Source of the DNA: an uncultured Paracoccaceae bacterium
Lineage (GTDB): Bacteria; Pseudomonadota; Alphaproteobacteria; Rhodobacterales; Rhodobacteraceae
Direction: 5' to 3'
DNA: 64,000 bases
Assembly (NCBI GenBank): GCA_947499725.1
Contig: CANMPK010000001.1
Coordinates: 930,001 to 994,000, forward strand
The notes under the pieces are model-generated. The model was not told the DNA's origin. It was given only the letters and a program-made list of their open reading frames with translations, and did not search any database. Positions 12,843-19,624 of the stretch are shown here, piece by piece; position 1 is the stretch's first letter; every line of letters begins with the position of its first letter. The position numbers and the translations under genes were made by a program.

Positions 12843-17197
<4,355 letters not shown>

Positions 17198-17265: not shown

Positions 17266-17985
17266 CTAAGCCTGAAGTGCGATATCAGGGCTGATTTCTG
17301 CCCCATCACCATCTGGATCACGCAGGACATACCCGCGCCCCCAAACCGTTTCGATATAGTTGTCACCCTCTGTCGCCTCACTGAGCTTTTTGCGCAGCTT
17401 ACAAATGAACACATCAATGATCTTAAGTTCCGGTTAGTCCATGCCGCCATAAAGATGGTTTAAAAACATTTCTTTTGTCAGCGTGGTGCCTTTGCGCAGC
17501 GAAAGCAGCTCTAACATTTGATATTCTTTGCCAGTCAGATGAACTGGCGCGCCATCCACATTGGCGGTTTTCGCATCAAGGTTTACAGAAACACGGCCCG
17601 TTTTGATGACGGATTGTGAATGCCCTTTGGAGCGACGAATGATGGCATGAATACGTGCGACCAATTCTTCGCGGTGAAACGGTTTGGTCAGATAATCGTC
17701 TGCCCCGTACCCAAATCCTTTGAGCTTGCTTTCAGTATCGTCTGAGCCGGACAAAATAAGAATGGGCGTATCGATCCGAGCCAAGCGCAATTGGCGCAGC
17801 ACATCGTGCCCCAACATGTCTGGCAAACCGAGGTCTAGTAGAATCAAATCGTAGTCATAAAGCTTTGCTAGATCGATCCCTTCTTCCCCTAAGTCCGTAG
17901 AATAGACGTTTAAGTTCGCATGGGTGAGCATGATTTCAATGCTCTTTGCAGTTGCTGGATCATCTTCAATTAACAAAACACGCAT
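17266..17985 (-). pseudogene. ctrA: Cell-cycle response regulator CtrA, interrupted by an in-frame stop
   Basis: OmpR-class regulator that in alphaproteobacteria controls motility, cell-cycle and gene-transfer functions. The receiver domain is complete (Asp8/Asp9, phospho-acceptor Asp51 in [10 protein letters not shown], Lys101). The winged helix begins, but after LYGGMD the codon is TAA (17434-17436). The same frame continues without a shift through [17 protein letters not shown] and [12 protein letters not shown] to a TAG at 17266, giving the normal ~239 codons. CtrA normally reads DEPELKI here, so one base change GAA to TAA explains it. The 183-residue product would lack the recognition helix and wing. 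It may be a real nonsense allele or a sequencing error. A GGAG site precedes the ATG. Confidence 0.9.
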
Positions 17986-18035: not shown

Positions 18036-18050
18036 TTAAATTCATATTAA
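18036..18050 (-). promoter_or_regulatory. Perfect CtrA binding box upstream of ctrA
   Basis: TTAA-ATTCATA-TTAA matches the full CtrA consensus TTAA-N7-TTAA, 51 bp before the ctrA start. It implies autoregulation, as known in Caulobacter. A GATTC (GANTC, CcrM methylation type) lies at 18070-18074 just upstream. Confidence 0.75.
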
Positions 18051-18077: not shown

Positions 18078-18356
18078 TTAAAGTTGTCTATATTTTTGCA
18101 AAGACGTCGTCTTCAAAGCGTCTTCACCGAACTCTTTAATGGCATGTATCCATTGCAAAAACTCTTCTTCCGATAAGTTATATCGCCTCAAAGCTTCTTC
18201 TTGCGTGATCAACCCGTATAAAACTCCACGCACAACCGCAGCCTTACGTGATGCAACCCAACGCCTTGTGTTGGTTGGCGGCAAATCCGATTGGGAGAAC
18301 ACCTGCCCATTCGGTAATGTCACCGTGCGGTGACCATCGATCTTTTTCAAAAACAT
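18078..18356 (-). CDS. sciP: SciP-like CtrA inhibitory protein (DUF1153)
   Basis: A 92-residue DUF1153 helix-turn-helix protein. The family core is clear: LPPTNTRRWVASRKAAVV, then LITQEEALRRYNLSEEEFLQW and a basic tail ending KYRQL. In Caulobacter SciP binds CtrA and blocks activation of its promoters. GGGAAG lies before the ATG at 18356, which is preferred over the upstream ATG at 18392. It sits directly upstream of ctrA on the same strand (92 bp apart) and is intact although ctrA is interrupted. Confidence 0.88.
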   Translation of the reverse strand: MFLKKIDGHRTVTLPNGQVFSQSDLPPTNTRRWVASRKAAVVRGVLYGLITQEEALRRYNLSEEEFLQWIHAIKEFGEDALKTTSLQKYRQL

Positions 18357-18396
18357 CGTATCTTCCCTTTCGTAAGGGTAGACTGACCGCACAGCC

Positions 18397-18478: not shown

Positions 18479-19624
18479 ATGCCGCTGGATACGAAACACC
18501 CTTTGAACTCTCTTGGATTTGCCAAGCCCCCGTCTGAAACACGGGTTGTTGTGGCTATGTCTGGTGGTGTGGATAGCTCTGTTGTGGCAGCGCAGTTGGC
18601 CGATGAAGGCTATGACGTGGTTGGTGTCACATTGCAGCTGTACGATCATGGTGCCGCTTTGGCCAAGAAAGGCGCGTGCTGTGCTGGGATCGACATTCAT
18701 GACGCACGCCGCGTGGCCGAGGAAAAGGGATTTCCGCATTACGTTTTGGACTATGAGAACATTTTCCAAGACGCGGTGATTGATGAGTTTGCAGATAGCT
18801 ATTTGGCAGGCGCAACGCCTGTGCCCTGTATTCGTTGCAATGAGCGTGTGAAGTTCAAAGACCTGCTGGAGACAGCCAAGGATTTGGACGCGGACTGCAT
18901 GGCGACGGGCCATTACATTCAGCGCATGATGGGCAACAATGGCCCAGAGTTGCATTCAGCAGCGGATGCGCAGCGCGATCAGAGTTATTTCTTGTTTTCA
19001 ACCACGCCTGAGCAATTGGATTACCTGCGTTTTCCATTGGGTCACCTGCCTAACAAAGACGCAACTCGCGCTTTGGCAGCAGAATACGGGCTGGCCGTGG
19101 CGGATAAGCCAGACAGCCAAGACATTTGCTTTGTGCCTAACGGGAACTATGCGCAGGTGATTGAAAAGCTGCGCCCTGGTGCTGCGGAACCGGGCGAGAT
19201 CGTTGATCAAGATGGCAATGTGCGTGGCACGCATAATGGTGTGATCCACTACACGATTGGCCAGCGTCGTGGTTTGGGCATTGGCGGGCTCAGCGAGCCT
19301 GTTTATGTGGTGAAATTGGACGTCGATAAAAAGCAGGTCATCATTGGCCCAAAAGAGATGCTCTCGACCCGGATCGTGCCAGTGCGCGAGATCAACTGGC
19401 TTGGGGATGTCCCCTTTGACAGCAAGGAAGAGTGGCACATGTCTGTAAAAGTGCGCTCTACTCGTCCGCCGCGTGAGGCAATCATTCGACCGACTGGGCC
19501 GACCACTGCCAACGTCGAGCTACTGACACCTGAGGAAGGCGTTTCACCGGGTCAGGCTTGCGTGTTTTACGACAATGATAGCTCTCGCATCTTTGGTGGC
19601 GGCTGGATTTGGCGCGGCGAATAA
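18479..19624 (+). CDS. mnmA: tRNA-specific 2-thiouridylase MnmA
   Basis: Adds sulfur to U34 of tRNA-Lys, -Glu and -Gln using sulfur relayed from a cysteine desulfurase. The 381 residues start with the PP-loop ATPase motif SGGVDSS (28-34); catalytic cysteines lie in PCIRCNE (117/120) and SQDICFVP near 217. GGAG is 8 bases before the ATG. The gene is convergent with lpxB, six bases apart. Confidence 0.96.

Follow-up and report, generated by a model that had tools for sequence, protein, structure and literature searches.

Organization of the ctrA locus

The stretch of DNA analysed, 64,000 nucleotides in length and hereafter called the window, corresponds to G000:C1:930001-994000 in a genome assembly (G000) of 3.15 Mb in 14 contigs, which is 99.91 % complete with 0 % contamination. 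The minus strand of the window contains a reading frame of 239 codons for the response regulator CtrA (17266-17985), in which a TAA at codon 184 (17434-17436, minus strand; TTA on the plus strand) is the sole premature stop. The open reading frame ending at this codon (17434..17985, minus strand) codes for 183 amino acids followed by TAA, has the C-terminal end ...HLYGGMD and covers the receiver together with the beginning of the winged-helix domain. The rest of the frame (recognition helix, wing and tail; 17266..17433, minus strand) is open to its own terminal stop at 17266-17268, and its translation, read with X at the stop and down to position 17272, reaches ...GYVLRDP without a further stop.

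A preliminary description of the locus had reported an in-frame TAA in a ctrA frame that is otherwise intact on either side. Both points were confirmed by the sequence, the list of open reading frames and the translation. It had also derived the stop from GAA by one base change. A single change is plausible, but its exact path is not established, since both glutamate codons are used among the congeners and the nearest of these (G005) has the other one at position 184.

A search of the genome found the ctrA stretch once, with 100 % identity, on contig C1 (1.35 Mb). A second CtrA ortholog was looked for in G000 and rejected, the next response regulator among the matches listed for this genome having E 3.1e-24.

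The open frame directly upstream of ctrA (18078..18392, minus strand) is sciP, coding for a CtrA inhibitor (NF051866 CtrAInhibSciP, PF06627); it scores 117.8 bits against NF051866, for which the cut-off is 100, over positions 2-90 of 90. The frame downstream of ctrA (14930..17182, minus strand, 750 aa) we take to be ligA, and that at 18479..19624 (plus strand, 381 aa) is presumably mnmA. A CtrA-box-like site, TTAA-N7-TTAA, is located upstream of ctrA, 65 bases before the start codon (18036..18050, minus strand), and a perfect TTAA-N7-TTAA was present within 160 bp upstream of ctrA in 7 of the 9 genomes of the genus. Autoregulation of ctrA has been reported for KLH11 (PMC3692519).

ChpT was found in all nine genomes of the genus. 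The CckA-like kinase of Cognatishimia activa CECT 5113 (G006) has NF046020 and NF046026 as its best models, both under their cut-offs, and its residues 187-758 have a match with 54 % identity in G000 (C1:754263-755984), within an open frame of 690 codons (C1:753936-756005). The predicted partners for phosphorylation through CckA and ChpT, and the predicted box for TTAA-N7-TTAA(C) binding, are thus both present.

Predicted properties of the truncated protein

The product of 183 amino acids matches the response regulator receiver domain PF00072 at residues 3-112 (91.6 bits). The winged-helix domain PF00486 (Trans_reg_C) is matched only at positions 1-37 of 77, compared with 1-77 in the CtrA of G005, and positions 49-77 match the piece beyond the stop (17269-17412). 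The best family for the product is NF045991 (CtrA, Rhodobacterales), of which positions 1-183 of 224 are matched and 184-224 are missing; the score of 325 bits, which is that of the truncated product, is below the cut-off of 350. Judged by its locus and sequence, the 183-aa ORF is a truncated ctrA allele and not a working member of the family. From knowledge of the winged-helix fold, we place the recognition helix and the wing beyond the stop. The earlier proposal that the receiver is kept while recognition helix and wing are lost is supported by the extent of the two domain matches.

Among solved structures, those nearest to the CtrA of G005 are that of the CtrA receiver (4qpj) and those of complete OmpR-type regulators, for example 1kgs, which aligns with G005 CtrA past the stop position and as far as residue 223. 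According to the list of open reading frames, a re-start at GTG 17412 would yield a piece of 48 residues, which, by the same knowledge of the fold, presumably begins inside the recognition helix.

ctrA in related genomes

Conservation of CtrA across the alphaproteobacteria is described as almost universal (PMC9836097). Comparison with the closest relatives had been suggested as a check in the preliminary description: in the genus of C. activa (nine genomes) ctrA was intact in all eight congeners, with a glutamate codon at position 184 in each, and the same stop, looked for in these relatives, was absent from all eight. The congener frames have 239 or 240 codons, recognition helix included, and the encoded proteins are 88-97 % identical to the window protein over 183 residues (n = 8). 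The nearest congener, G005, has 97 % identity over the 183 residues and 82 % in DNA. In C. activa CECT 5113 the full frame with the recognition helix is present, whereas in the window the frame is truncated. Among named loci, the best 80 of 588 matches, a sample biased towards intact copies, all contained the compared 22-residue segment, and none had an ORF shorter than 225 aa.

Between G000 and G005, pN was 0.019 and pS 0.70 for codons 1-183, and 0.037 and 0.75, respectively, for codons 185-222 (Nei-Gojobori). The approximately twofold higher pN after the stop is based on 3.2 changes, and the intact pair G005-G006 tilts likewise (0.069 after and 0.048 before the stop position). In the other pairs listed pN was 0.014-0.068 before and 0-0.069 after this position, so the G000-G005 values are within the range of intact pairs. 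The low pN/pS on both sides of the stop indicates that constraint held on both until recently. Since synonymous change is saturated, this comparison can place the stop no more exactly than at some time since the divergence from G005, and probably a late one. With intact relatives, one lesion and no clear relaxation of constraint, the frame has the features of a young pseudogene.

Flagellar genes and other premature stops

Three flagellin matches are located on contig C5 of G000, where FlgK, hook/rod proteins, FlgH, MotB and FlhA are also encoded by open frames (1 of 10 proteins was without a match), as is a FliK-like protein just under its cut-off. Of 74 ORFs on the flagellar contig of G005, 48 were matched on C5, with a single one flagged, for a stop near the N-terminus in a match of 51 % identity. 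When the comparison was turned round, flags were raised for 4 of 48, either on the G005 side or where a stretch ends. No clear decay was seen in the flagellar genes compared, as would be expected if the ctrA allele were very young, and equally if the allele did not exist.

Other stops were rare in the 80 matches to ORFs of relatives in four sets (36 + 18 + 10 + 16, partly overlapping), from stretches representing a small part of the genome. Clear mid-gene stops were found in only two genes, ctrA and the gene after ghsA described below, both belonging to the CtrA/GTA system. One further match had stops at residues 8 and 34 and was open after these, probably reflecting a difference in start site; in three others short coverage was the sole reason for a flag. 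The stretches compared gave no sign of widespread decay or of sequencing noise.

The gene transfer agent

The HK97-type capsid family PF05065 gave strong matches in 6 of the 8 congeners and a weak one in G007, and was absent from G000 and G001. In G005 the gene transfer agent (GTA) cluster is at approximately 17.5-31.6 kb of contig C16, and it is missing from G000, where the left flank ends at C1:525818 and the match on the right starts at 526326, with collinear flanks. Apart from two short flank ORFs, the only ORF of the G005 cluster matched in G000 (E 1e-8, identity over 45 %) was the last gene (GTA_TIM, Phage-tail_3, Rcc01698_C), which is reduced to residues 199-1305 of 1314 and, truncated at its 5' end, is open over 1092 codons (G000:C1:526305-529580). 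A remnant at the syntenic site, with the capsid and other head-side genes gone, identifies a decayed RcGTA-like GTA.

The head-spike locus of G000 is located approximately 15 kb from this gap. Its ghsA (spike base; NF048002, RCAP_Rcc01079 family) is open. The following gene (G000:C1:511275-512474), which we take to be ghsB, has an in-frame TAA at codon 136 (C1:511680), a position without a stop in G005 and G001. By position, in the place of rcc01080, and by its SASA domain, it is a putative ortholog of rcc01080, described as the head spike fibre of RcGTA (PMC10218006).

Most of the GTA cluster is likewise gone from the congener G001 (C1 ~2643700-2647200), in which ctrA is intact. What G001 retains is at least two genes at the left of the cluster and the final 108 residues of the last gene. 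The deletions of G000 and G001 differ, so the two losses are independent. Loss of the GTA as a consequence of the ctrA stop is therefore not supported; the link between the stop and the GTA loss is one of association, in a single genome, and is not causal. The preliminary description had suggested looking for decay of known CtrA targets, and the outcome was divided: most of the GTA cluster was gone, but the flagellar genes compared were not visibly decayed.

Broken ctrA genes in the Rhodobacteraceae

The family sample consisted of 395 genomes, each at least 90 % complete. In 373 of these CtrA was matched with an E of 1e-60 or lower (372 with a second query). One genome, G251, has three such CtrA-like matches, most others having one. 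Seven of the 373 CtrA-bearing genomes, the window genome included, carry a firmly broken ctrA, and the seven belong to seven genera. The breaks comprise two nonsense codons, one frameshift, two transposase-bearing insertions, one probable insertion and one prophage of 47 kb. Besides the TAA of the window, there is a TAG at codon 123 in G256 and a frameshift near codon 166 in G226. In G014 an element carrying a DDE transposase stands in place of the codons before approximately 118, and the 5' part of ctrA was not found at E 1e-30. In G346 the gene is split near codon 124 over two contigs, the ends of which carry HTH_Tnp_1 and rve transposase pieces. In G110 the C-terminus is altered beyond codon 201, not far from where the contig ends, and the break is probably an insertion.

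In G116, ctrA is split at codon 179 (C1:627833-675694), with the second part 47,167 bases away and followed by ligA. The insert carries integrase, portal, terminase, head and tape-measure genes and is a prophage, and a 7-base stretch is common to both junctions. With a prophage inside the gene, lysogeny itself may act as an off-switch for CtrA, reversible by excision. Phage-borne ctrA was also looked for, and the one match was to MT839622.1, an unannotated 4-kb record labelled Bacteriophage sp., with 71 % identity to half of the ctrA ORF at the end of the record, which is perhaps mislabelled host DNA.

The count of seven is a lower bound, as stops and frameshifts could be read for 308 of the 373 genomes with CtrA (229 + 79 more; 20 of the 308 were read with the 183-residue query plus open-frame length) and the screen for truncation, made by match score, was incomplete. 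For this screen, 13 genomes with low scores or flags were picked by eye. Six were firmly broken (G256, G226, G116, G110, G346 and G014), five (G332, G012, G208, G025 and G252) were stop-free over 225-232 residues, and in G344 and G360 ctrA is cut by contig ends. The seven do not include these last two, nor G030, which has a frameshift and falls below the limit for completeness. G110, cut at codon 201, still scored 2.2e-117, and low scorers such as G410 (7.6e-118), G378, G084 and G358 were left out of the screen. The seven in 373 are a count for ctrA alone, and an excess of breakage is not claimed.

The GTA capsid was present in 326 of the 395 family genomes. It was absent (E 1e-60) from 2 of the 7 genomes with broken ctrA and from 46 of the 366 other CtrA-bearing genomes (p = 0.22, Fisher tests ignoring kinship; the GTA status of single genomes was read by eye), and family-wide tracking of GTA loss by ctrA breakage was rejected. 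With GTA loss alongside an intact ctrA in G001 as well, GTA decay is no proof of the stop.

In 22 of the 395 genomes there was no CtrA match at E 1e-60, and 21 of these also lacked the GTA capsid at E 1e-60. They are G022, G060, G089, G118, G128, G135, G158, G180, G182, G187, G198, G213, G220, G231, G233, G283, G314, G369, G393, G396 and two more; two of the 22 (G399 and G412) were identified by inference. The capsid was kept by one CtrA-less genome (G198) compared with 325 of the 373 CtrA-bearing ones, kinship being ignored.

Discussion

The locus is best explained, as we hold with considerable confidence, by a real and young loss-of-function allele, a nonsense mutation in the only ctrA gene of a marine bacterium related to Cognatishimia. 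It is most likely that the allele is real and that it is young. Its youth is indicated by the constraint still apparent on both halves of the frame, by the presence of the CtrA box, and by the open frames of sciP, chpT, the cckA-like gene and the flagellar genes identified. Translation would end after residue 183 and give at most the receiver and half of the winged helix. Such a protein could still be phosphorylated via CckA and ChpT and, from its domain anatomy, would be unable to bind CtrA boxes.

The consequences for the cell can be predicted from published ctrA mutants. The gene is described as essential in Caulobacter and dispensable in knock-outs of Rhodobacterales (PMC4046655, PMC3692519); KLH11, TM1040 and R. 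capsulatus can do without it, and in D. shibae it has been deleted (PMC3692519, PMC4046655, PMC8116508), in agreement with the preliminary description, which had called ctrA dispensable in several members of the order. Loss of ctrA is reported to stop swimming in KLH11 and to lower flagellar gene expression in D. shibae, and the GTA cluster of R. capsulatus is reported to be under CtrA control (PMC3692519, PMC4046655, PMC8116508). By comparison with these ctrA-null relatives, the strain should live, with its CtrA-dependent genes, above all those for flagella, not switched on. Like the ctrA-null Ruegeria KLH11, Dinoroseobacter shibae and Rhodobacter capsulatus, it would represent a viable group from which CtrA function has been removed. 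Unlike the laboratory nulls, which were engineered, the allele here is found in a public assembly and leaves a truncated receiver.

The stop is found in a lineage that separately dismantled its GTA. Pseudogenisation and loss of GTAs have been described in several alphaproteobacterial lineages, which are read there as cheaters (PMC10883770). As in those lost systems, a GTA deletion and a pseudogenised GTA-side gene occur here in one genome; unlike in the losses described in that source, the GTA activator ctrA is broken too, an association for which there was no counterpart family-wide.

Two origins can be considered within the preferred reading of a real and young nonsense allele. The wild strain may have been intact, the allele having arisen and spread in culture while the strain was being isolated or kept, given that CtrA-driven swimming and differentiation carry a growth cost; this we consider possible, with the balance somewhat against it. 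The apparent youth of the allele and the breaks in seven genera by different mechanisms fit this origin, and differentiation has been called a burden for population growth (PMC4046655). Against it, ctrA mutants of KLH11 are reported to have grown like the wild type in the laboratory (PMC3692519), so no growth advantage was seen there. Alternatively, ctrA may have been lost under selection by phages that need CtrA, with the ctrA nulls as survivors. R. capsulatus with ctrA deleted is reported to resist phage Jorvik, which makes phages one plausible selective force, and several temperate phages of alphaproteobacteria are said to have regulatory regions to which CtrA binds (PMC10589892). The recurrence of ctrA breakage across genera would also be in line with phage selection. 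However, there was no sign of phage contact in the parts of the window examined, and we know of no CtrA-dependent phage of the host species. Selection by phages is rated as the less likely origin, and as rather unlikely by itself.

A base-call or assembly error, with ctrA intact in the living strain, is improbable. The lesion is a single codon, known from the assembled sequence, in a frame conserved past the stop, as an error would also leave it. Against an error stand the rarity of other stops in the matches to relatives and the restriction of the clear mid-gene stops to two genes of the CtrA/GTA system. It is very unlikely that the protein of 183 residues is itself functional, as a phosphate sink for ChpT or another regulator. 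Its receiver is complete and conserved, but in a cell without full-length CtrA there is no CtrA to inhibit, the conserved part beyond the stop argues for youth and not for a settled new role, and the other broken copies end at different places. Read-through of UAA to give full-length CtrA might be suggested by the fact that two genes of the genome have an in-frame TAA with the frame open beyond it. It is most improbable, since a suppressor tRNA was rejected by the absence of anticodon TTA from the 44 tRNA matches of the genome, all typed by ARAGORN, and the gene after ghsA itself terminates in TAA.

Searches of the open-licence PMC literature brought up no description of ctrA broken naturally in a member of the Rhodobacterales, nor of a prophage inserted in the gene. 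Taken together with the young nonsense allele of the window, the breaks in the family allow a bolder reading, less likely than not, in which ctrA is a recurrent knock-out target, hit independently in at least seven Rhodobacteraceae genera, the loss of which pays under some condition in nature or in culture, with lysogeny as in G116 as a possible off-switch. Escape from CtrA-dependent phages, or relief from the cost of swimming and differentiation, could be the payoff.

Loss of motility or of the GTA could belong to the sequenced isolate and not to the species. With its only ctrA broken in a lineage with a dismantled GTA, the organism is possibly a natural counterpart of the ctrA knock-outs. 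The recurrent breakage of ctrA is the part deserving a properly controlled survey, as the count in the family raises the question of whether loss is more frequent for ctrA than for genes like it and what, in that case, selects for it.
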